Assembly: GCA_003153015.1 (NCBI GenBank)
Contig: PMBS01000156.1
Coordinates: 131 to 35,075 of the forward strand
Source: Myxococcales bacterium
Lineage (GTDB): Bacteria; Myxococcota_A; Polyangia; Fen-1088
Length of the DNA: 34,945 nucleotides
Reading direction: 5' to 3'
The notes beneath the pieces are model-generated. The model was not told the origin of the DNA. It saw only the letters and a program-made list of their open reading frames with translations, and did not search any database. The translations under genes and the position numbers were made by a program. Below, one piece after another: positions 1,011 to 15,599 of the stretch. Within the stretch, counting starts at the first letter, position 1; every line of letters starts with the position of its first letter.

Positions 1011-1820
1011 GTGAAGAAGGCTCCAGGTTTCAGCTTCGACGTCTCGCGCGAAGGGGTGGGAGCGCGACTGGAGGAGATGGAGCGCAAGTTGGAGCGTATG
1101 CGCGGGCTGTACGAGTCCTTCTTCATGGGTATCGAACGTTCGCCGCCCGAGGTATTGCGCCGCGACCTGAACCGGCAGATTCTCGAAATGCAGCAGGTGC
1201 CGATCAGTAACGCTTCGCTGCGTTTTCGCTATCAGGCCCTGACCCAGCGCTGGGTGCTGCTCATCACTTACTGGAACCGCACCATGCGCGAGATCGAGGC
1301 CGGCACGTTTAGCCGCGACCTAGCCAAAGCGAAACGCCACCTGACCACCAAAGGCACTTCGGCCGTCACCCTGGAAGAGGCACTGGCCATGGGCATCCCC
1401 GCTGCCCGGGCCAAGGCCTTCGTCGCTCATCAGCAGGCGGTGCAGGACAGGCGCGTGGCACGGGCCAAGGATGCAGCAGCGGGCGCGGCCCAGGCCGACG
1501 GAGCCCCAGCCTCTGCAGATACACCGAAGACCGCGCCACCCGCCGCGCAGGCGACAACCGCGCCGTCAGGCGTACCGCCGTCGGTTGCTCTGCCTGGGCT
1601 TTCCGATGTGGAAATGCAGGACGCCTACCGCCGCTACCTCGCAGCACACCAGAAGGCGGGCATAGCAGACTCGGCGCCGCCGATGGACAAACTGCGCCGG
1701 AGCCTGGCCAAGCAGCTTCCCCAAATCCTCTCCGCCAACAACTGCTCGCGCGTGCGGCTGGACATCGCGGTCGAGGACGGCAAGGTGCGCCTGCGTGCCT
1801 GGCCGCTCAAGGAGTCGTAG
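1011..1820 (+). CDS. Conserved hypothetical protein, myxobacterial type (coiled coil plus C-terminal domain)
   Basis: This 269-aa cytoplasmic protein has no signal peptide or TM helix and starts at GTG 1011. Residues about 15-50 are a charged amphipathic helix (GARLEEMERKLERMRGLYESFFMGIERSPP) likely to form a coiled coil, followed by a helical part with LRFRYQALTQRW. An Ala/Pro/Thr-rich linker (about 150-195) leads to a C-terminal domain with LSDVEMQDAYRRYLAAHQKAG and a beta-rich end (SRVRLDIAVEDGKVRLRAWPL). The arrangement reminds me of the uncharacterised 'MXAN_5187' family of Myxococcota, but that is recall, not a search. Function is unknown. It stands alone, convergent with the lipoprotein cluster downstream. 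Confidence 0.8.
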   Translation: MKKAPGFSFDVSREGVGARLEEMERKLERMRGLYESFFMGIERSPPEVLRRDLNRQILEMQQVPISNASLRFRYQALTQRWVLLITYWNRTMREIEAGTFSRDLAKAKRHLTTKGTSAVTLEEALAMGIPAARAKAFVAHQQAVQDRRVARAKDAAAGAAQADGAPASADTPKTAPPAAQATTAPSGVPPSVALPGLSDVEMQDAYRRYLAAHQKAGIADSAPPMDKLRRSLAKQLPQILSANNCSRVRLDIAVEDGKVRLRAWPLKES

Positions 1821-1856: not shown

Positions 1857-3422
1857 TCAGCACTCTGGGCACTGGCAGGTGAGCGTCGTGCTGTTCGGCG
1901 CGACACACGACAAACCGCCGCTGCAGATCCCCATGCACGCGCAGGTCGGGTTCGCGGCGCACTGGGGAGGCGTGGAGACGCAATGGTAGGAGAAGGGCAG
2001 GGTCTGGAAGGTCGCACAAAGCAGTCCTGTAGGCGCTGCAGACGTTGCGGCGCACGCGTCACACGAACTAACCTCCGAGCAATCCTCCACCTTCGCACAA
2101 CCCCCGGCAGGGCAGTTTCCGACGAACAGGGGAGCCTGCCCGGCCGAACACAGGGGAGTAGGAGTAGCGATTGGGCAAATGCCCCCCGCTGGTTTGCAAG
2201 CCCGACTGAATGTGCAGCGACCGGCGATGCACGCGACCTCGCTGTCCTGAATCTGGCGAGCGGCGCAACTGCTCTGAATGCACATTGCACCACAGCGGGG
2301 CATGGCAGTGCCCACAGGGACGGGCAGGCAGCTGCAGCAGTCCGAGAAGAGCTGACAATCATTGTCCGTCATGCACTCCGGGTATCCGCCGGACGAGCCA
2401 CCGGCTCCGCCCGTACTCGTGCCTCCGGTGCCTCCAGTCGTCGTGCCGCCAGTAGCCGGCCTGCCGCCGGTTGCGGTGGCGCCGCCAGTTCCCGTGGTCC
2501 CGCCTGCTCCTGCATCTTTGCTTGGGCATGCGCCGTCGAAGTTCTTGGACACGCCGGCAACTTGGCGCAGGCAATCGTTGCCATAGGTCTTCCCATCGCA
2601 ACCGCAAACGGGCAGAAAGAGTTCGGGGCAAACCTGAGGCCGGGCCGCGCAGGTTCCAAAAAAGTCGCAGCAGCATTCCCCCGGCGACGTTTCGCAGAAC
2701 TCACCTGCCGCGCAGGGATATCCCGCAAGTCCACCGCAGATCTTGCCGGTACCGCCGGTGCCGCCAGATCCGGTGGTGCCGCCGGTTTGCGTGGCGCCTC
2801 CAGTTCCCGTGGTACCGCCGGTTCGCACGCTGCCCCCAGTTCCGGTGCCACCACCTGCTCCTGTCGCACCACCGGTCTGCGTGGCGCCTCCAGTTCCCGT
2901 CTTGCCGCCAGTTGCTGTGGCGCCGCCAGTTGCTGTGGTACCGCCGGTTTGCCTCACACCGCCAGATCCTGTCGCGCCGCCGGTTTGCACACCGCCTCCG
3001 GTTCCTGCGTTACCGCCGGTTCGCACGCTGCCTCCAGTTCCTGTGGTGCCGCCCGATCCCGTCGCACCACCGGTTCCCGTGGCGCCTCCATCTTGCATTC
3101 CACCGGTCCGCGTGGCGCCTCCAGATCCCGTCGCACCACCGGCTCGCGTTGCGCCGCCTGCTCCCGCGGTGCCGCCGGTTGTCGCAAATCCACCGGCTGC
3201 GGTGACGCCGCCGCTTCCAGTGACACCCCCGGTGTTCACGGCGCCGCCCGCCCCAGTACCACCTCCGTGGCCCGCAGGTGCGTCGAGGTCAGGCGCATGT
3301 CCATCCACTCTCGCTAGACTGAGCCCCGATTGATTGCTGCTGCAACCAGCGGGCAATCCCAGCGCAACCATGCTGCTTGCAATCATCCCAAGAATCGCCG
3401 GGGTCGTCGCTAGTCTAGTCAT
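1857..3422 (-). CDS. Kazal-domain lipoprotein with TGG-repeat stalk (paralog 1, most distal)
   Basis: This 521-aa exported lipoprotein has signal peptide residues 1-26 and lipobox LPAGC, with the lipidated Cys at 27. Residues about 53-227 are an almost pure Gly/Thr/Ala/Ser tract of GATGTGG-type units, a flexible stalk. A Cys-rich module follows (CGGLAGYPCAAGEFC..., 229-265), then one Kazal-like domain (CPELFLPVCGCDGKTYGNDC...GAC, 265-299). A second short TGG stretch (303-346) leads to a unique Cys-rich C-terminus. Kazal domains are known as serine-protease inhibitors, but here inhibition is inference. ATG 3422 is preceded by GGAGGAGG. It lies 81 bases downstream of the next paralog on the same strand, and its C-terminus is unlike either sister. 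A cell-surface location is likely. Confidence 0.88.
   Translation of the reverse strand: MTRLATTPAILGMIASSMVALGLPAGCSSNQSGLSLARVDGHAPDLDAPAGHGGGTGAGGAVNTGGVTGSGGVTAAGGFATTGGTAGAGGATRAGGATGSGGATRTGGMQDGGATGTGGATGSGGTTGTGGSVRTGGNAGTGGGVQTGGATGSGGVRQTGGTTATGGATATGGKTGTGGATQTGGATGAGGGTGTGGSVRTGGTTGTGGATQTGGTTGSGGTGGTGKICGGLAGYPCAAGEFCETSPGECCCDFFGTCAARPQVCPELFLPVCGCDGKTYGNDCLRQVAGVSKNFDGACPSKDAGAGGTTGTGGATATGGRPATGGTTTGGTGGTSTGGAGGSSGGYPECMTDNDCQLFSDCCSCLPVPVGTAMPRCGAMCIQSSCAARQIQDSEVACIAGRCTFSRACKPAGGICPIATPTPLCSAGQAPLFVGNCPAGGCAKVEDCSEVSSCDACAATSAAPTGLLCATFQTLPFSYHCVSTPPQCAANPTCACMGICSGGLSCVAPNSTTLTCQCPEC
2742..3266 (-). repeat. TGG-repeat coding tract of lipoprotein 1
   Basis: About 525 bases encode overlapping G-A/T-T/S-G-T/A-G-G units. 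The bases repeat as imperfect copies of GGCGGCACCACGGGAAC-like units. The tract is translated and in frame and probably forms an extended surface linker. Length polymorphism by slippage is expected, which is inference. The same periodicity creates long spurious Pro/Val-rich ORFs on the plus strand. Confidence 0.8.
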
Positions 3423-3503
3423 AGCTGGCCTCCTCCGTTGTGTCTCTGCGGTACTACCTTCTTATTGTTGCTGGCTCGTCTGAAAGTTCCACGGTTTTCT
3501 GGT

Positions 3504-5138
3504 CTACGCGCAGATTGGGTAGGAACAGGTGTTGCACGTGATGGTCACTCCGCCGGTGAGGGTGGCATTCACGGAGCACGAACCCGGGGACGTGCCGCAT
3601 TCGGGAGCGACCGGTCCCTGGCCGCAGACATTGTTGACACATTGAACTATGCGAGCGCCGCCCTCCATGATCAGGCACAACTGTCCGGACGGACAGCTCG
3701 TACCGACACAACTGACACTACTGCAGGTTGCGGTTTGAGCCGTCCAGGTGCCGCCCGTGCAGGTTGCCTGCGTGCGGCCGGTGCCAGGGCAGTTGTCATA
3801 AAAACACGACGCGCCCGGGCTGCTGCAGGGTGAGCCGTTTGTCGGCGCAACAAAGGGACACCCGGGCACCGAGACGGCACACTCGCTCGGGAGGACGCAC
3901 CCCTCGTAGCAGTTGCTGGTGTACGACATGACATACAGTCCCCCGCAGGAGGGCTGCGCAATCGTGCACCCAAACCCAACCGGGGGGGTGCATTTGGCGC
4001 GGCCACCGTCGGCACAGCGACTGAAGCGTTCGCAACAGCCGATAGCGGAACACCCGCAAGCTCCGATATCCATGAAGACCGAGTGGCAATCACTGCGGCT
4101 GTCACACGCCGCTTGAGTTGTCACCTGGCTGCAGCTCACCGGAGCAGCGTCGGTTGTTCCGGCGTCCGGAGCCGGGCAAGGGGCGGCACTGCATACGACA
4201 CTGCAAGAACCGGTTCCAGGCGTGCACCCGGGACACCATCTCTGGCCGGCCGGACAGACTCCCGCATCCGCTGTGGCGCACGCGCCGTCGTAGTTCTTGG
4301 ACACGCCGGCGTTGCGGCGATCGCAGTCGCTGGGATAGGTCTGCCCGTCGCAGCCGCAAACCGGCTGATAGACCGTCACGCACCCCATCCCGGTATTCAC
4401 CACGCAGGTTCCGAATCCATCAGCCACGTTGCAGGTCCCGGCCGGCATTTCGCAGAATTCGCCGGTCGCGCAGGGCAGTCCCGCAATACCGCCGCATTTC
4501 GTGCCCGTACTGCCTCCTGTGCCTCCAGCGCCGGTGGTGCCTCCAGTGCCCGTGGTGCCTCCAGTGCCCGTGGCGCCGCCAGTCCGCGGGCTCCCGCCAG
4601 TTCCGGTTGTGCCGCCGCTCGATCCCGCACCGCCCGTTGCCGGGCACGGCGTCTGGCAGACCCCTGCCAGAGGACTAAGGCACTGCCCGCAGCAGAGCGT
4701 CCAGTTTGGCGCGCACCCTGTGCTGGTCCCAGTTGTTCCGCCGCTGGCGTTCGCTCCACCAGTTCCAATGGTTCCCCCGCCCGCTTTCGACCCGCCACTG
4801 GCCTTCGTTCCGCCACTCGCTGTGACTGTGCTGCCGCCGTCGCCGACGCTGCCGCCGAAGCCACCTGCCGTGGTGCCGCCGGTTCCCGTGACAACGCCGC
4901 CCGTGGGGACGCCCCCAGTGTCCACGGCGCTGCCTCCGCTCCCCCCAGCCGCACTGGTGGTACCCACGCCGCCAGCACCTCCACTGCCCGCAGGCGCGTC
5001 CGCGGCAAGTGTCGGCGCGTCCACATTCTCTTGGCCGATTGTCACCTTGTTGCTGCCGCAGCCGACGAGCAATCCCGCCGCGACTAATCCGCCCACGAAA
5101 GTGGCAAGCATAACTGGGACTGTTGCAATTCTAGTCAT
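3504..5138 (-). CDS. Kazal-domain lipoprotein with TGG-repeat stalk (paralog 2, middle)
   Basis: This 544-aa exported lipoprotein starts at ATG 5138 (MTRIATVPVMLAT...), preceded by TGAGGAGT. That start is preferred over the 14-codon longer track start because it matches the sister genes. The lipobox is LLVGC with Cys27, and the mature start GSNKVTIGQENVD closely resembles paralog 3. TGG-rich linkers occupy about 51-140 and 168-213. Between them is a small module GCAPNWTLCCGQCLSP, shared with paralog 3. The CGG module (215-250) and one Kazal domain (253-287, CVTVYQPVCGCDGQTYPSDC) follow. The next Cys-rich region, QRWCPGCTPGTGSCSVVC through RSDCHSVF, is also shared with paralog 3, but the last about 120 residues are unique. 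Protease inhibition or surface adhesion are the plausible roles; neither is shown. Confidence 0.88.
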   Translation of the reverse strand: MTRIATVPVMLATFVGGLVAAGLLVGCGSNKVTIGQENVDAPTLAADAPAGSGGAGGVGTTSAAGGSGGSAVDTGGVPTGGVVTGTGGTTAGGFGGSVGDGGSTVTASGGTKASGGSKAGGGTIGTGGANASGGTTGTSTGCAPNWTLCCGQCLSPLAGVCQTPCPATGGAGSSGGTTGTGGSPRTGGATGTGGTTGTGGTTGAGGTGGSTGTKCGGIAGLPCATGEFCEMPAGTCNVADGFGTCVVNTGMGCVTVYQPVCGCDGQTYPSDCDRRNAGVSKNYDGACATADAGVCPAGQRWCPGCTPGTGSCSVVCSAAPCPAPDAGTTDAAPVSCSQVTTQAACDSRSDCHSVFMDIGACGCSAIGCCERFSRCADGGRAKCTPPVGFGCTIAQPSCGGLYVMSYTSNCYEGCVLPSECAVSVPGCPFVAPTNGSPCSSPGASCFYDNCPGTGRTQATCTGGTWTAQTATCSSVSCVGTSCPSGQLCLIMEGGARIVQCVNNVCGQGPVAPECGTSPGSCSVNATLTGGVTITCNTCSYPICA

Positions 5139-5192
5139 CGTGAGACTCCTCAGTCGTGTCTCCGTCAAATGGTGTTGCAAGCAAGCAATCGA

Positions 5193-6938
5193 CTACTGGC
5201 ACTTCCCGCTGGCGAGGAGAGCCCCAGGAGCGCACACGCAGCGGCCGTCAGCCACGCAGCGGCCATGAATCGAACTCAGGGCCGGATTGTCGTTGCAGGT
5301 CTGGTCAGCACCAACCGTACACGCGCCGGCTGGGCCCGCGCAACCGTAGCCCGGCAAGAAGCAGCCAGCGCCGCAGCTGCAGGTGCTGACCGTGTGGCTG
5401 TTGGCAGGCGCACATCCACAGGCCCCGACCAGACAGGAATTCGGGAAATCGGAGGTGGCGCTGCAGCAGAGCGAGCTGCTGACTGCGCCGCCGGTCGCGG
5501 TGCAAAGCACGGCGGGCGACGAAGCGTCGCCGCTCGGCCTCACATCCTGGCCGCCATCAACACCGGCGCACTCGCTTTGGCGGACACAGCCCTCGTAGCA
5601 GACGCCGGTGTACGACAGGACATAGGGCGCTTCGCAGAAAGGCTGCGGCGCCATACAGGCAACCGGGCCGCTGCAGTTGGCGTGGCCACCGTCGGCGCAG
5701 CGGTTGAAGTGCGCGCAGCAACCAGCAGCGGCGCACCCACAAGTTCCCGGATCCACGAAGACCGAGTGGCAATCGCTGCGCGCATCACACTCCGTTTGGG
5801 TCGTCACCTGGCCGCAGCTTGCTGAAGCCACATCCCCGGTTCCTGCGTCGGGAGCTGGACAAGCAATGGCGGAGCACACAACGCTGCACGAACCCATTCC
5901 AGGCGTGCACCCCGGGCACCATCTCTGTCCGGTTGGGCAGACTCCGCCATCTGCTGTGGCACAGGCGCCGTCGGACTTCTTCGTCACGCCGGCAGCTTTT
6001 CGGTCACAGTCGTTGCCATAGGTCTTCCCGTCGCAACCGCACACGGGTTGGTAGTCCGTGACACAGCCTTGCGGCTTGACTGCGCAGGTCCCGGTCGCAT
6101 CGGCCACGTTGCAGGATCCTGTCGGCAGGTCACAGAATTGACCCGGGCCACATGTCATTCCCCTGAGGCCTCCGCACGTTACACCGGTCGTTCCGCCCGT
6201 GCCCCCTGTTCCCGTGGTCCCGCCCGATGCCATGGCGCCGCCGGCTCCTGTACTGCCGCCGGCTGCTGCATCTGCCGTGGCACAAGCGCCGTCGGACTTC
6301 TTGGTCACGCCATTGCTGGTGGCAAGCCGGACGCAGTCGTTGCTGTAGGTCTTCCCATCGCAGCCGCAGACAGGCTGGTAGAGCATGTCGCAAACCTGAG
6401 GCTTGACCACGCAGGTTCCAAGTTCGTCGGCGATGTTGCAGCTCCCTGGCGGCATGTCACAGATTTCACCGGCCGCGCAGGACAATCCCGCAAAGCCACC
6501 GCAGGTCTTTCCCGTGCCGCTGCTGCCGCCGGTTGCAGTGGCGCCGCCGGTTCCCGTGGTACCGCCCGCTGGGCACGGCGCGCAGATTCCGGCAGCGGGA
6601 CTGAGGCACTGGCCGCAGCAGAGCGTCCAACCCGGCGCACATCCCATGCCGGTCCCTGAGCCGCCTGTCCCGATTACTCCGCCAGCGGCCTTGCTGCTAC
6701 CGCCAGCGCCGCCGTTGCCGCCCGAGCCAATTGTCGTGGTGCCGCCGCTTCGCGTGGACCCGCCCGTTTCCGTGACACCACCGCTCCCGTTGCTGCGGCC
6801 TCCACTTCCCCCTGACGCTGCCGCGTCCAAATTCTGTTGTCCGATCGTCACTTGGTTGCTGCCGCAGCCGGTACTGCCAGCGACCAGGCCGCCGACAAGA
6901 ATTCCCAGTGTCACTGGAGTTATTGCGAATTTAGTCAT
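5193..6938 (-). CDS. Kazal-domain lipoprotein with two Kazal repeats (paralog 3, proximal)
   Basis: This 581-aa exported lipoprotein starts at ATG 6938, preceded by CAGGAGAAGAA. The signal peptide ends in GSTGC with lipid Cys25, and the mature start (GSNQVTIGQQNLD) matches paralog 2. A short Gly/Ser linker is followed by the GCAPGWTLCCGQC module, then two copies of the CGG+Kazal unit: 146-219 (CDMLYQPVCGCDGKTYSNDC) and 255-327 (CVTDYQPVCGCDGKTYGNDC). A TGG spacer separates them. This is a clear internal duplication. The region QRWCPGCTPGMGSC to CYEGC is shared with paralog 2, and the Cys-rich tail (from about 480) is unique. It lies 36 bases after the putative anti-sigma gene, so co-transcription is likely. 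Confidence 0.88.
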   Translation of the reverse strand: MTKFAITPVTLGILVGGLVAGSTGCGSNQVTIGQQNLDAAASGGSGGRSNGSGGVTETGGSTRSGGTTTIGSGGNGGAGGSSKAAGGVIGTGGSGTGMGCAPGWTLCCGQCLSPAAGICAPCPAGGTTGTGGATATGGSSGTGKTCGGFAGLSCAAGEICDMPPGSCNIADELGTCVVKPQVCDMLYQPVCGCDGKTYSNDCVRLATSNGVTKKSDGACATADAAAGGSTGAGGAMASGGTTGTGGTGGTTGVTCGGLRGMTCGPGQFCDLPTGSCNVADATGTCAVKPQGCVTDYQPVCGCDGKTYGNDCDRKAAGVTKKSDGACATADGGVCPTGQRWCPGCTPGMGSCSVVCSAIACPAPDAGTGDVASASCGQVTTQTECDARSDCHSVFVDPGTCGCAAAGCCAHFNRCADGGHANCSGPVACMAPQPFCEAPYVLSYTGVCYEGCVRQSECAGVDGGQDVRPSGDASSPAVLCTATGGAVSSSLCCSATSDFPNSCLVGACGCAPANSHTVSTCSCGAGCFLPGYGCAGPAGACTVGADQTCNDNPALSSIHGRCVADGRCVCAPGALLASGKCQ

Positions 6939-6974
6939 TTCTCTTCTCCTGAGTTGTTTCTGCGGGCTTCGTCT

Positions 6975-8078
6975 CTAGTGTTCCCGGCCCGGCTCGATTC
7001 CGTTGGACTGTTTGGCGTTTCCGTCAGATCTCTTGCATGCGGATCGCACGCGCTCGGCCAGGGGCGACTGCGGGGCGGTGCGCCAAAAACGCTCGGCCTG
7101 GGCCTCGGCCGCAGGGCCGGGGTGCGCCTGACAAGAGGCAATAGCCCCGATGGCTCGCCTTTCTTCATTCAGCGTTCCCTTGCCAAAGCGGCGGTCGTAT
7201 TCGGCCAGCCGCCGCAAAGCCTGGGCAGGAAGCCCCACGCGCAGGTCTTCCTGGGCCTGCCGGAGCAGGGTGAGTTCCGGATCTAGAGAGTCGAGCGCGG
7301 GGCCGGGCTCTGGTGCGCTCGCGACCGCGGACACGGGTCGTGGCTCGTAGCGGACCACTTCGCGGCGCCGCATCTCGGATGGCAGCGGTTTGGGGCGCAG
7401 TTCTTCCACGACGGCCCGAACCTCGGGTGCAGCCATCGGCGGGGCTGAGGATTCAGCCAGCGGACGCTGGGCAGGAAGGCCTGCTGGCGAATCTTCCTGG
7501 GCCCGCCGGGGCACGGTCAGGACCGGATCAAGAGAGGCGAGCGCGCGGCTCGGCACTGGTGCGCTGGCGACTATGGACCCACGGCCCGTTGTCGCGGGCC
7601 GTGCCTGGTTGCGAACCACTTCGCGACGCCGCACCTCGGGCGGGAGCGGTTTGGGGCGTGGTTCTTCCACGACGGCCGGAGCCGCGGGCGGCAGCGGGAT
7701 GGGACGCGGTTCTTCCACGACCTGAGATTCGGGTGCAACCACCGTTCGGGTTGGAGGCGTAGGCAGGGTCCGGGACACATGGCGGGACGCCGTACGGTGT
7801 GACGTCGTGGTCGGCGACGGCGAGTGCGCCTTCCAGGCCCACAGAGAAACCGAGCCGCCGCCCAACACCGCAACGGTCAGCGCAGCCACGGTCACCTTGG
7901 TGGCCAGGGTCATGGCGACCGCGCCACCTGCAGCCGTGGACACGGCAGACGCAGCACCCACGGTAGCCACGCGCAGGAGCACGGCGTGCTTGATGCGCGC
8001 GCGGTCCGCACGGGTGGGCGCCTCTGCGCCTCGGGCTGCTTCCAACATCGATTGCACTTCAGGTCCGAGGTCGTTCAT
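6975..8078 (-). CDS. Single-TM protein, putative anti-sigma factor partner of the ECF sigma
   Basis: This is a 367-aa protein. The cytoplasmic N-terminus (1-about 45) is acidic/basic helical (LEAARGAEAPTRADRARIKHAVLLRV). A hydrophobic part follows (about 45-85), ending in a likely TM helix VAALTVAVLGGGSVSLWAW. A long Pro/Arg-rich linker leads to a helical C-terminal domain (from about residue 265, LLRQAQEDLRVGLPAQALRRLAEYDRRF) resembling one TPR-like hairpin. It overlaps the sigma gene by ATGA, the usual arrangement for a sigma/anti-sigma pair. No zinc-binding HxxxCxxC anti-sigma motif is visible, so the role comes from context. The linker holds a degenerate copy of the start of the C-terminal domain (see repeats). 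Confidence 0.75.
   Translation of the reverse strand: MNDLGPEVQSMLEAARGAEAPTRADRARIKHAVLLRVATVGAASAVSTAAGGAVAMTLATKVTVAALTVAVLGGGSVSLWAWKAHSPSPTTTSHRTASRHVSRTLPTPPTRTVVAPESQVVEEPRPIPLPPAAPAVVEEPRPKPLPPEVRRREVVRNQARPATTGRGSIVASAPVPSRALASLDPVLTVPRRAQEDSPAGLPAQRPLAESSAPPMAAPEVRAVVEELRPKPLPSEMRRREVVRYEPRPVSAVASAPEPGPALDSLDPELTLLRQAQEDLRVGLPAQALRRLAEYDRRFGKGTLNEERRAIGAIASCQAHPGPAAEAQAERFWRTAPQSPLAERVRSACKRSDGNAKQSNGIEPGREH
7198..7412 (-). repeat. Internal duplication in the anti-sigma-like gene, copy 2 (intact)
   Basis: This copy encodes VVEELRPKPLPSEMRRREVVRY... through LDPELTLLRQAQEDLRVGLPAQALRRLAEY. It lines up with 7449-7673 (VVEEPRPKPLPPEVRRREVVRN... LDPVLTVPRRAQEDSPAGLPAQRPLAES). The downstream copy continues into the C-terminal domain and looks like the functional one. 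Confidence 0.75.
7449..7673 (-). repeat. Internal duplication in the anti-sigma-like gene, copy 1 (diverged)
   Basis: This is the partner of 7198-7412. The helical part has lost its hydrophobic pattern (Leu to Pro and similar changes), so it probably serves only as linker. A third fragment, VVEEPRPIPLPP, lies just upstream at about 7689-7721. Confidence 0.75.
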
Positions 8079-8704
8079 GGCTGCCTCCGCAGTTCCTGCG
8101 CCCGAAAGCGCAGCAGAGCCTTTTGAAATTCTTGCCGGGCCGCGCGCAGACGGGAGGCGACCGTGTTCGGGTTCGCCTCGACGATCTCCGCGATCTGCAC
8201 CGCGGTCATCTGTTCGATCTCCGCCAGAACGAAGACCTCACGCTTGTCCTCATCCAGCTCGCCCAGCAGACGGTCGAGAACCCGCAGGGCCTCGACCCGT
8301 TCCAGCGTCGCCGCAGGACCTTTTTCGTGATCGGCCGCCAGGGTTTGGATCTCGGCTGGATCCTCTGCTGCCCGATCTCCGGGTTTGCGCTGGTGGGCGC
8401 GCCAGTAGTGCCTCACTACATGCACCAGGATCTTGAACACCCAGGTCTTGAGCTGCGCCCGGCCCTCGAACTCGGCCAGACGGCGGTGCACGATGAAGAA
8501 CACCTCTTGCACTACATCGTCCATGTCCGCTAGCCGGACCCCCATGCGACGCACCGCCCGCCAGACAAAATCCAAGTGATCCTCGTACACGGCATCGAAG
8601 TCCGGGACAGGCACGCGGCTCGGCGAAGCCGCGGTTTCGAGCGCGTTCCCGGCAGGACAACTCATGCTGATCACTTGGTTCCCGGGAGAGCGCGAATTCG
8701 TCAT
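8075..8704 (-). CDS. ECF-type RNA polymerase sigma factor
   Basis: This 209-aa sigma-70 family ECF factor has region 2 at about 35-105 (FDAVYEDHLDFVWRAVRRMG, then DMDDVVQEVFFIVHRRL, the core/-10 recognition helix). Region 4 is at about 140-200 (LDRLLGELDEDKREVFVLAEIEQMTAVQIAEIVEANPNTVASRLRAAR, a helix-turn-helix for the -35 element). No region 3 is present, as expected for ECF. I start at ATG 8704, where TGATG links it to the stop of the upstream gene; ATG 8665 (MSCPAGN) is an alternative. The track's 310-aa version reads back through the upstream gene. The ATGA overlap with the downstream membrane protein suggests sigma/anti-sigma control. It probably activates this operon itself, but I could not identify a promoter motif. 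Confidence 0.93.
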   Translation of the reverse strand: MTNSRSPGNQVISMSCPAGNALETAASPSRVPVPDFDAVYEDHLDFVWRAVRRMGVRLADMDDVVQEVFFIVHRRLAEFEGRAQLKTWVFKILVHVVRHYWRAHQRKPGDRAAEDPAEIQTLAADHEKGPAATLERVEALRVLDRLLGELDEDKREVFVLAEIEQMTAVQIAEIVEANPNTVASRLRAARQEFQKALLRFRAQELRRQP

Positions 8705-9684
8705 CAGAAATGCAGCTCGACCCCCAGGCTGATGCGGACCCCAACCGCGGGGGTCTGGAAGACTCGGCCTGGCTCGTTCTTGAACACGAACTCGGTGCGC
8801 CGCAGGGGAGCCAATACATCCACATGCAGGGGAATCCTGAAGTGGGGGCCAAGGGGGATTGCCGCGTAGGCGCCAGCGCCCAAGGCCGACCATAGGGTTT
8901 GGGCGGGCAAGCTCTCGCTGACACCAACTCCTTGGGCCGACACCACACCAAGTTCGGCATCCGCACAGGCGCCAAAGGCCAAACCTTCTCGCCCGAGGTT
9001 GAAACAAGCCGCGAGCGCCGCGGCGGTGAGGTTGAACTGGCCATAGGCACCAGCGGGTGTCGCTGCCATGGCCTTCTGGTCACGCCGCAAGCCGTAGGTC
9101 CCACGCAGTTCCACGCGCCAACGTCGCCCGGCCAGGCCGACCCCGCCGCCCAGGCCCACGTCGAAAGAAGGCAGAGTCCGGTAGCTGCCGACTGTGTGGA
9201 TGCCCAGGAGGTACTGCATGGCTCGGGGTTTTCTCTGAAGCGCGGGATCGGTTTCCGCGGGCGGCGTCGCCGGAACCGGTTTGGGCGGCGTCGCGTGGGC
9301 TGCTACCGCGTTTGGATCGATCATCAGTGCGATGATGAGAGCCGTAGCATCGGCGAGATCCTGGCAGGAGGCGGCCTCAATCGACCGCTGTCCGGGTCGG
9401 CCTGCCAATTCGGTTTCGACCGCGAGCGACCAGGTCTGCCCATGCGACACCTGCGCGCGCGCCTTGATGTCGCCGCCCTGGGGCACGCGTATGTCCCCGC
9501 CCAGCAGGCGCGCGATCTCGGCGCGCAGGTCATCGCGCGAAGGACAGCCCGCAGGCGCCTGCCAGGAGATTGTGAGTGCGCCTGGCTCATCGGCGTGGAC
9601 CAAGCGCGCACTCCCCAGCATGGCCAGAGTCAGCACGGCGCTTGCAAAGAGAATGCTAGGTGGCCGCCGGTTCACGCGATCCAC
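8704..9684 (-). CDS. Predicted outer-membrane/periplasmic protein ahead of the ECF sigma
   Basis: This 326-aa protein starts at GTG 9684. It has a cleavable signal peptide (residues 1-about 31, SILFASAVLTLAMLGSARLVHA). An N-terminal domain of about 100 residues (ISWQAPAGCPSRDDLRAEIARLLGG ... SCQDLADATALIIALMID) contains two Cys. A Pro-rich hinge follows, then a Gly/aromatic region of alternating hydrophobic strands ending VGVRISLGVELHF. The C-terminal Phe and strand pattern are typical of outer-membrane beta-barrels. Proteins of this layout sit near sigma factor genes in myxobacteria (recalled, not searched). It is the first gene of the six-gene minus block and is coupled to the sigma by TGATG. 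It may sense or respond at the envelope, but its exact role is unknown. Confidence 0.82.
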   Translation of the reverse strand: MDRVNRRPPSILFASAVLTLAMLGSARLVHADEPGALTISWQAPAGCPSRDDLRAEIARLLGGDIRVPQGGDIKARAQVSHGQTWSLAVETELAGRPGQRSIEAASCQDLADATALIIALMIDPNAVAAHATPPKPVPATPPAETDPALQRKPRAMQYLLGIHTVGSYRTLPSFDVGLGGGVGLAGRRWRVELRGTYGLRRDQKAMAATPAGAYGQFNLTAAALAACFNLGREGLAFGACADAELGVVSAQGVGVSESLPAQTLWSALGAGAYAAIPLGPHFRIPLHVDVLAPLRRTEFVFKNEPGRVFQTPAVGVRISLGVELHF

Positions 9685-9785
9685 AGTACACCCGGTTGGA
9701 GCGCGGTGAGAAACGGTGCGATCTGCCTTTTCCGAAGATCAAGCCTTCCCTGAAGCGCCGTTTTGGTTATCGTCGGGCTGTGCAA

Positions 9786-13337: not shown

Positions 13338-15599
13338 ATGCAACGAGAGCACAAAACCCAACGTCGAGTAGCCGGGATTCTCACATCATTCCTCTGCGCA
13401 ATAGGCGTAGGAATGCTGTTCCCTGCGTGCGATTCTTCTACCGGAACCACCCAACGCGGAACTGGCGGCGCCCAAACCACCGGCGGCGCACAAACTACCG
13501 GCGGTGCCCAAACTAACGGCGGCGCCCAAACTAACGGCGGCGCCCAAACTAGCGGCGGCGCCCAAACCACTGGCGGCGCCCAAACCGCCGGCGGTGCCCA
13601 AACCACCGGCGGCGCCCAAACCACTGGCGGCGCCCAACCCACCGGCGGGGTTCAAACCACTGGCGGCGTCACCAGGACGGGCGGCGCCCAAACCACTGGC
13701 GGCGCCCAAACCACCGGCGGCGCCCAACCCACCGGCGGCGTGAAGACCACCGGCGGCGTCATCACCGACGGCGGCGCATCGAGCGCAGGTGGCGTCACGG
13801 GTGCGGGTGGAGCAACCAAGCCGATAGTCACCGGGGGAGGCAGCGGCCACTACCAGATGGAGAACTTGGATCGCGGCGTGGTGGCCGTGAAGGTCTCAGG
13901 CGGCGTCTATGTCGGCTGGCGCATGTTTGGCTACGAATACGACACCACGGCCAGCAACGTTTCGTACAACCTCTACCGGGACGGTACCAAGGTGGCGAAC
14001 GTGACCGATAGCACCAACTACCAGGACGCGTCCGGTACCAGCAGCTCGAAGTATACGGTGAGCGCTGTGATCAAGGGGACTGAGGGGGCGCAGTCTCCTG
14101 CGGCCACAGTCTGGGCGCAGCAATACCTGAGCATTCCGATCAAACCCCCGTCCGGCTCGTACAGTGCGAATGATGCGAGCACCGGCGATCTCGATGGCGA
14201 CGGCAAACTCGACATCATCCTCAAGTGGGATCCGTCGAATTCGAAGGACTCTGGGGCGAGCGGCACGACAGACCCTTGCATTATCGATGGGTATACGATG
14301 GCCGGAACGCGACTGTGGAGCATCAATGTGGGTTCAAACATCCGCGCCGGGGCGCACGATACGCAATTCTCCGTGTACGACTTCGACGGTGACGGCAAGG
14401 CCGAGGTGTCGTTCAAGACCGCGCCTGGCACCAAGGATGGCAAGGGCAACTTCCTGGCAAAAGGCCCGGCAGCCGGCGCCGACAACAGCAAGGATTACCG
14501 CAGCTCTGGTGGAATGATGTTGGAGGGACCGGAGTGGCTAACCGTGTTCAGTGGCGTTGACGGCTCGGAACTGGATACCGTGGACTATCCGGTGCCCTAC
14601 GGGACGGTTGCCAATGCTCAAGCGACCTGGGGAGACGCGGCCGGCAACCGGTCGCACCGCTACAACGGCGGGTTTGCCTTTGTGAAGGATGGCGGCGTTG
14701 CCACTGGCCAGCCGAGCATCATCCAGCAGCGCGGGTACTACACGCGTCTGACGGTCTCTGCCATGACCTTCCGAGGCGGGGTGTTGGCGAAGAACTGGGT
14801 CTACGACAGTGGGTCCACCAACGGCAATGAAGCCTATGGCCAAGGCTGCCACTCCTGCATGACGGCGGACGTGGATGGCGACGGTGCGCAGGAGATAATC
14901 CCCGGATCGTCAACCATCAACAGCGACGGAACCTTCAGGTGTGCAACAGGAATCGGCCATGGCGATGCCTTGCACGTGAGCGAGCTGGTGGTTGGCAAAG
15001 GGATTTCGGTCTTCCTGCCTCACGAGATGGCCGGGGGTCAGGATTGCCATGACGCCTCGACGTGCAAGTTGTACTTCAACATGACAGGAGGTAGTGACAA
15101 CGGGCGTGGCGTCGCCGATTATGTCAACCCCCTCGACGTCGATGCCGCGGTGTGTTCCAGTACCCATGGCAGGAAGAATTGCGGAACTGGTGTCGACGTT
15201 GCTTCCAATGCCGGGACCGACTTCCTCATCTACTGGGACGCTGACGAACTACGCGAGATTGAAAACGGCACTTCCATCACCAAGGATGGCGGCGGAACTT
15301 TGTTGAACGCGAGCGGCTGCGCGTCGAACAACAGTACCAAGCAAACCCCGACCTTGACCGCCGACCTGCTGGGTGACTGGCGCGAGGAACTGGTGCTGCG
15401 CGAGTCGGGCAACACGGCCTTGCGGCTGTTCACGACGACAATTGTGACCAAGCGCCGCATCTACACGCTCATGCACGATCCGACCTATCGGGCGCAGGTA
15501 TCGTTTGAGCAGGCGAGCTACAATCAGCCGCCCCACGTGGGATTCCATATCGGCCCGGGCATGGTTGACCCGCCCAAGCCCGATATCCACGTGCAGTAG
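13338..15599 (+). CDS. Lipoprotein rhamnogalacturonan lyase, PL11-like
   Basis: This is a 753-aa protein. The signal peptide ends in the lipobox FPAC (Cys31), predicting lipid anchoring at the envelope. Residues about 41-162 are a TGGAQT hexapeptide repeat linker. From about residue 170 it matches the PL11 rhamnogalacturonan lyase family (YesW/YesX type): an N-terminal beta domain (MENLDRGVVAVKVSGGVYVGWRMFG), then a propeller with calcium-type repeats DLDGDGKLDIILKWDPS, VYDFDGDGKAEVSFKTAPGTKDG and DVDGDGAQEIIPGS. It ends with LGDWREELVLR and LMHDPTYR. Such enzymes cleave the rhamnose-galacturonate backbone of pectin by beta-elimination. The ATG is preceded by AGGGAGGA. No other pectin genes are nearby, so it probably acts as a stand-alone surface enzyme. 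Confidence 0.93.
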   Translation: MQREHKTQRRVAGILTSFLCAIGVGMLFPACDSSTGTTQRGTGGAQTTGGAQTTGGAQTNGGAQTNGGAQTSGGAQTTGGAQTAGGAQTTGGAQTTGGAQPTGGVQTTGGVTRTGGAQTTGGAQTTGGAQPTGGVKTTGGVITDGGASSAGGVTGAGGATKPIVTGGGSGHYQMENLDRGVVAVKVSGGVYVGWRMFGYEYDTTASNVSYNLYRDGTKVANVTDSTNYQDASGTSSSKYTVSAVIKGTEGAQSPAATVWAQQYLSIPIKPPSGSYSANDASTGDLDGDGKLDIILKWDPSNSKDSGASGTTDPCIIDGYTMAGTRLWSINVGSNIRAGAHDTQFSVYDFDGDGKAEVSFKTAPGTKDGKGNFLAKGPAAGADNSKDYRSSGGMMLEGPEWLTVFSGVDGSELDTVDYPVPYGTVANAQATWGDAAGNRSHRYNGGFAFVKDGGVATGQPSIIQQRGYYTRLTVSAMTFRGGVLAKNWVYDSGSTNGNEAYGQGCHSCMTADVDGDGAQEIIPGSSTINSDGTFRCATGIGHGDALHVSELVVGKGISVFLPHEMAGGQDCHDASTCKLYFNMTGGSDNGRGVADYVNPLDVDAAVCSSTHGRKNCGTGVDVASNAGTDFLIYWDADELREIENGTSITKDGGGTLLNASGCASNNSTKQTPTLTADLLGDWREELVLRESGNTALRLFTTTIVTKRRIYTLMHDPTYRAQVSFEQASYNQPPHVGFHIGPGMVDPPKPDIHVQ
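13458..13823 (+). repeat. TGGAQT hexapeptide-coding tandem repeat
   Basis: About twenty 18-base units of the type GGCGGCGCCCAAACCACC encode T-G-G-A-Q-T, with variants (N, S, A or P at one position; V for A). The later units are more diverged. The tract is in frame inside the PL11 lipoprotein gene, between the lipobox and the catalytic domain. Confidence 0.9.

Follow-up and report, generated by a model that had tools for sequence, protein, structure and literature searches.

A Kazal lipoprotein operon of a Myxococcales bacterium, read as one copy of a class-wide ECF sigma factor cassette

A block of six genes lies on the minus strand of a 34,945-nucleotide stretch of DNA (hereafter, the window) from a Myxococcales bacterium (Polyangia, Fen-1088; contig PMBS01000156.1). 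The block encodes an outer-membrane protein (OMP), an extracytoplasmic function (ECF) sigma factor, a single-transmembrane (TM) protein that is probably its anti-sigma factor, and three lipoproteins with Kazal domains. Judged from sequence, it is a Kazal-carrying copy of a general cassette that is found across the class and is not restricted to Kazal proteins. The genes are located at 9684-8704 (OMP, with a GTG start), 8704-8075 (sigma), 8078-6975 (TM protein), 6938-5193 (lipoprotein 1, K1), 5138-3504 (K2), and 3422-1857 (K3), and each is an open reading frame throughout. The OMP and sigma genes overlap by one base in TGATG and the sigma and TM protein genes by four bases in ATGA, while the gaps between the TM protein gene and K1, K1 and K2, and K2 and K3 are 36, 54, and 81 bases, respectively. 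These co-directional genes, junctions, and gaps are as described in an earlier note made by reading this DNA alone, and so is the lack of a terminator between the lipoprotein genes: a terminator scan finds no terminator-like site in the three gaps, and such sites in the scan are not above shuffles (6 vs. 5.2). By its anatomy, its couplings, and its recurrence in other genomes, the block is one operon, as the note had proposed.

The core order of the cassette is OMP, ECF sigma factor, single-TM protein with a BamD-like tetratricopeptide repeat (TPR) end, and lipoprotein. This arrangement of genes recurs well outside the genus, as shown by searches with profiles of the OMP and of the TM protein. 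Of 115 good genomes in the class, 61 have a member of the OMP family, and the copy number per genome rises to at least 19; in a sample of the phylum, matches to this family are confined to the class and two genomes of one other family, and in one of these two the order of OMP, sigma, anti-sigma, and tagged lipoprotein is complete. The OMP–sigma–anti-sigma order is found at 63 sigma loci, and at 12 further loci the sigma factor is fused to the anti-sigma protein; the loci were chosen from profile matches and their genes were called with a simple caller, and therefore these counts are approximate. The sigma/anti-sigma junction is most often a 4-base ATGA overlap, as in the window. Variants also occur: the order is sigma, anti-sigma, OMP in some genomes (L210, L213), and some sets of sigma, anti-sigma, and tagged lipoprotein have no recognisable adjacent OMP (L318). 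The window block contains every part by which the cassette is defined, namely OMP, sigma, anti-sigma, and a lipoprotein bearing the sequence C-x(3-8)-[ILVM]G, in this case both K1 and K2. The earlier note had taken the Kazal lipoproteins as part of the make-up of the system; the unit of OMP, sigma, TM protein, and lipoprotein does recur, but the Kazal domains are not its defining part, and the lipoproteins in that slot (the cargo) are varied. The open literature searched, in which the main ECF classification paper was not included, holds no description of the cassette or its tag, and their novelty is provisional.

The cargo tag, C-x(3-8)-[ILVM]G, directly follows the lipidated cysteine. Side-by-side reading of otherwise unrelated cargo lipoproteins revealed that they share an aliphatic residue followed by Gly, at a distance of about eight residues from that cysteine: in K1 the tag is C-GSNQVT-IG (6840-6866, minus strand; lipid Cys25 to Gly33), and in K2 C-GSNKVT-IG. 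Other sigma loci of the window genome carry lipoproteins tagged CSDQIHLG, CTKTDALG, and CGQNLDVG. In the discovery set, the tag is found in 19 of 22 non-redundant cargo proteins vs. 11 of 117 other lipoproteins, some of these 11 being also near cassette genes. Because these first statistics were made after viewing the data, a held-out test was performed, for which the pattern C-x(3-7)-[ILM]G, not followed by G, was fixed before 40 new loci were taken. In a first pass, 11 of 14 detected cargo proteins matched this pattern; in a second pass with improved lipobox detection and lipoproteins from random regions as controls, it was found in 16/25 held-out cargo proteins vs. 0/43 controls (p 1.4e-9). 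When V is allowed, which was introduced only once the held-out misses had been inspected, the numbers become 21/25 and 1/43. Furthermore, a blind alignment of 82 cargo proteins has a nearly invariant glycine at the tag position (G33 of K1), which is not so in the control alignment.

The sigma factor is a protein of 209 amino acids with region 2 (PF04542, 4.1e-13) and region 4 (PF08281, 2.3e-11) and no region 3, an ECF sigma factor architecture, and it matches TIGR02937 at 1.9e-26. The TM protein begins with two short helices, which are followed by a single TM segment (about 7916-7839, minus strand), a linker rich in Pro, and a TPR-like end of five helices (about 7295-7029, minus strand). The best structural matches of this end are BamD proteins at E 0.03, and the match is therefore fold-level support only. 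In the window protein, part of the linker and of the TPR start is repeated (about amino acids 180–250), which is absent from its relatives. Pfam and NCBIfam scans of the TM protein give no anti-sigma family match, with weak TPR/BamD matches only, so that the anti-sigma-like label of the earlier note has no family behind it. The TM protein is nevertheless a probable anti-sigma factor because of its conserved linkage, its topology with a single TM segment, the ATGA coupling, and the fusions: at the 12 fused loci, a single protein runs from an N-terminal sigma factor through a TM segment to the TPR end. An action of the TM protein on the sigma factor finds its strongest support in these fusions.

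The OMP of the window (326 amino acids) has a signal peptide and a barrel-like C-terminal part ending in ...VELHF, as expected from the label given to it in the earlier note; between them is a periplasmic alpha/beta domain (about 9576-9319, minus strand; beta-alpha-beta3-alpha), which the label did not include. The latter may resemble TolB-N/HPF folds, an assignment of low confidence from a structure model; the models of both the OMP and the TM protein are single-sequence predictions. Directly upstream of the OMP start is a promoter-like block (9685-9712, minus strand) composed of TTCTCA (9712-9707), 16 bases, and TGTACT (9690-9685), followed by the GTG. This block is nearly identical in six species of the genus, in three of which the DNA further upstream is unrelated. 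It does not match the sigma-70 consensus and is conserved within the genus only; it is the best promoter candidate, with a putative promoter role. Two other candidates were rejected. A class-wide ECF promoter, AAC[CT]-N14-17-CGT, occurs upstream of the OMP in 10 of 106 cases vs. 6.7 in shuffles and is not enriched, and the commonest spaced tetramer pairs there are only GC-rich words. At the genus level, CCAACC-N17-CGTGAA was set aside because its start site would fall inside an apparently translated signal peptide.

K1 is composed of a lipobox (STG-C), a Gly-rich linker, two Kazal domains, and Cys-rich C-terminal modules. Three Kazal lipoproteins had been called by reading; Pfam Kazal_1 (PF00050) is significant in K1 (two copies, 9.5e-10) and K3 (2.8e-6), and marginal in K2, whose single degenerate copy (E 4.6e-4) is found only in the whole-genome scan. 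The domains, all on the minus strand, are located at 6273-6419 in K1 (P1 = Met, C-D-M-L-Y), at 5976-6100 in K1 (P1 = Thr, C-V-T-D-Y), at about 4278-4388 in K2 (P1 = Thr), which also has Cys-rich modules, and at about 2568-2651 in K3 (P1 = Glu). In addition to the profile match, the first Kazal region of K1 matches solved structures of the inhibitor ovomucoid at 1.8e-12, and its reactive-loop register is that of turkey ovomucoid domain 3. In 25 distinct Kazal domains of the family, entropy over the 20 columns from C2 to C4 peaks at P1 (2.77 bits), followed by P1′, P3′, and P2, while P4′ to C4 are nearly fixed. Such variable contact residues on a fixed scaffold suggest the behaviour of true inhibitor contact residues, and the Kazal modules probably block serine proteases. 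A separate group of Kazal proteins, from Hyphomicrobiales/Rhizobiaceae (L041, L042, L044), has a constant P1 Arg (C-T-R-E-Y), vs. the variable P1 here.

Across the class, the 82 cargo proteins include DUF4215/disulfide repeats (8), Kazal (7), Pacifastin (5), Dickkopf-like (5), and VWF-like (4) domains, as well as RCC1 repeats and single enzymes, e.g., pectinesterase, arabinofuranosidase, and multicopper oxidase. No Kazal or Pacifastin is found among the best 25 of 56 families listed for 43 control lipoproteins. The Kazal cargo includes orthologues and therefore represents at least two distinct cassette lineages (the C338 type, and the C251 type in G010). In another family of the class, cassette lipoproteins (L206, L205, L251, L262, L227) contain Pacifastin domains, as many as four in one protein (E 9.6e-30). 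The link to protease inhibition that the earlier note had drawn is strengthened by the variable Kazal contact residues and by these domains in the same cargo slot. Elsewhere in the window, a large lipoprotein (13338-15599, plus strand) has a GGAQTTGGAQT repeat linker and, by eye, an FG-GAP/lyase-like ectodomain; repeat linkers of this kind are frequent on surface lipoproteins of these genomes.

Within the genus, linkage of the six genes had been set beforehand as a test, and the block is indeed kept in five of six other genomes (G001, G002, G004, G005, G006). It lies within one contig in G006, G005, and G004, and is broken by contig ends in G002 and in G001, the latter showing the OMP and sigma genes only. 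The number of Kazal lipoproteins per block is two in G004, G005, and G006, three in the window, and at least four in G002. In the sixth genome, G003, the site has no sigma, anti-sigma, or OMP gene of the cassette kind, and a fragment with one Kazal domain only is found between the same neighbours; the block has been lost here as a whole, with this relic left behind. Downstream of the block is the same MXAN_5187-type gene wherever the contig reaches, while upstream neighbours vary in some genomes. In the window, the product of the gene at 1011-1820 (plus strand) has an MXAN_5187_C domain at its C-terminus (NF041621, 2.3e-11), and this protein is the downstream cassette border in relatives whose contig extends that far. 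Orphan K2-type lipoprotein copies outside the operon are present in the window genome, G000 (C114, L058:9130-10386; C216, L059:2636-3898), and both have lost the tag; one orphan in G002 retains VG. The two and G002 C261 were considered as regulon members and rejected, being without a copy of the promoter block. Upstream of C114 and of G002 C261, the DNA is similar to the last part of the anti-sigma gene, and therefore these two look like copied operon tails. In G002 C37 (L050:9041-10400), a cassette has an eroded OMP, of which only the C-terminal ...GVELRF end is left before sigma.

From these features, we infer sigma sequestration, sensing, autoregulated expression, surface display, and protease inhibition. 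On balance, and with modest confidence, the cassette is viewed as a self-contained unit for cell-surface signalling and display, which here shows Kazal domains. The TM protein would hold the sigma factor at the inner membrane, and its TPR end would read the state of the periplasmic domain of the partner OMP and/or of the lipoprotein tag. A change in contact, caused by a ligand, protease attack, or outer-membrane damage, would inactivate the anti-sigma protein and free the sigma factor to transcribe the operon, so that more OMP and more lipoproteins would be displayed on the cell, where the Kazal modules would block serine proteases of prey, of competitors, or of the cell itself. Several points weigh against this scheme. 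The protein contacts and the sigma-dependent transcription are steps that we infer, no promoter motif is common to cassettes across the class, and the structure model of the OMP is poor (predicted local distance difference test, pLDDT, 37.6). The Kazal domains do not have the usual fifth cysteine (C5), have an extra Cys two residues after C3 (CGC), and in some cases have P1 residues (Asp, Ala) unusual for inhibitors. As for the tag, 4 of the 25 held-out cargo proteins do not match it, and that of K3 is eroded (CSSNQSGLS), while it is intact in orthologues, e.g., CSSNHAGIG.

Other explanations have to be weighed. That the genes are chance neighbours, with lipoproteins transcribed from separate promoters and functionally unconnected to sigma, is very improbable: gaps of 36–81 bases could hold weak promoters, and no promoter motif shared across cassettes was found, but cargo directly after the anti-sigma gene recurs throughout the class, the tag is common to unrelated cargo, and the block was lost jointly in G003. 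A dedicated export or anchoring role of the OMP, which would read the tag and carry the lipoprotein to the surface while sigma and anti-sigma only set the dose, is rather unlikely. It would account for the specificity of the tag to cassette cargo, for OMP and lipoprotein genes being neighbours in most cassettes, and for the two untagged orphans of the window genome; the sets without a recognisable adjacent OMP (L318) and the G002 orphan that keeps VG speak against it.

The lipoprotein may also be the sensor and not the output: held by the OMP, it would let its tag reach the anti-sigma TPR end upon envelope damage or upon binding of a protease to the Kazal domain. Conservation of the tag only beside the lipid anchor, the resemblance of the TPR end to BamD, the RcsF/OmpA/IgaA precedent (PMC7553776), and the highly varied cargo ectodomains, as expected of ligand binders, agree with this idea, but the two to at least four lipoproteins per operon in the genus suggest an output, and several cargo enzymes (pectinesterase, arabinofuranosidase, laccase-like) are more effector-like; we consider it fairly improbable. 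It is likewise doubtful that the Kazal modules are structural or adhesive Cys-rich modules, as in agrin or follistatin. The absent fifth canonical cysteine, a flanking follistatin-like segment that matches follistatin and agrin too, and the many other cargo proteins made of non-inhibitor Cys-rich repeats are in favour of such a role, whereas variability within the core peaks at the positions of reactive-loop contact, a pattern of inhibitors under target pressure, and the unrelated Pacifastin inhibitors occupy the same slot elsewhere.

Large Myxococcota genomes contain many ECF sigma genes with no assigned role. Returning to the signalling and display unit, it may represent a new class of Myxococcota systems, in which the [ILVM]G tag marks unrelated lipoproteins for a dedicated OMP and TPR anti-sigma protein and the ECF sigma factor controls exchangeable surface modules, protease inhibitors included; we hold this tentatively, at slightly under an even chance. 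If this is true, one recurring cassette with a recognisable cargo tag would account for a considerable part of the ECF sigma genes, the tag would let surface lipoproteins be assigned to their sigma factors, and the signalling step would be testable by changing two tag residues. The cargo also suggests that bacteria display protease inhibitors on their surface, and in two unrelated folds, Kazal and Pacifastin.

Among known systems, signalling of the FecA/FecR/FecI type is one of the closest working models (PMC11637429). As in FecA/FecR/FecI and FoxA/FoxR/FoxI, an OMP with a periplasmic domain, a probable single-TM anti-sigma factor of the inner membrane, and an ECF sigma factor are encoded together in the cassette and would regulate surface proteins, and the adjacency of sigma, anti-sigma, and OMP genes typical of TonB-dependent signalling is found at the 63 OMP–sigma–anti-sigma loci. 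Unlike in Fec/Fox, the cassette OMP is of about 300 amino acids with a TolB-N/HPF-like periplasmic domain, the anti-sigma protein has a BamD-like TPR end, and a tagged lipoprotein is added; in Pfam and NCBIfam, the window OMP has no plug, TonB-dependent receptor, or STN match, and the TM protein has no FecR match, so that the block does not belong to this type. The other closest working model is the RcsF/OmpA/IgaA system, in which outer-membrane proteins hold RcsF, and RcsF signals to IgaA on release (PMC7553776). The RcsF–OmpA/BamA–IgaA chain is similar in that a lipoprotein, an outer-membrane protein, and an inner-membrane regulator form a possible sensing chain, while in the cassette the output is an ECF sigma factor and not a phosphorelay, the sequences are unrelated, and the contacts are putative. 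Sigma-I/RsgI of cellulolytic clostridia likewise comprises many paralogous sigma/anti-sigma pairs tied to extracellular proteins; the cassette differs in its sigma group, in that no RsgI features are found, and in its Gram-negative setting with an OMP and a tagged lipoprotein. Pacifastin-like domains are described in large GC-rich myxobacterial genomes in the part of a paper on bacterial pacifastin-like proteins considered here (PMC13388995), and its flanking-gene account, to that extent, mentions neither an ECF sigma cassette nor lipoproteins, unlike the Pacifastin cargo in this study. Finally, the Kazal modules share with Kazal inhibitors of the ovomucoid/PSTI type the register C-P2-P1-P1′-Y-x-P-V-C, the CGxDGxTY core, and the variable contact residues, and differ from them in missing the fifth cysteine, in having the extra Cys of CGC, and in being membrane-anchored on Gly-rich stalks.

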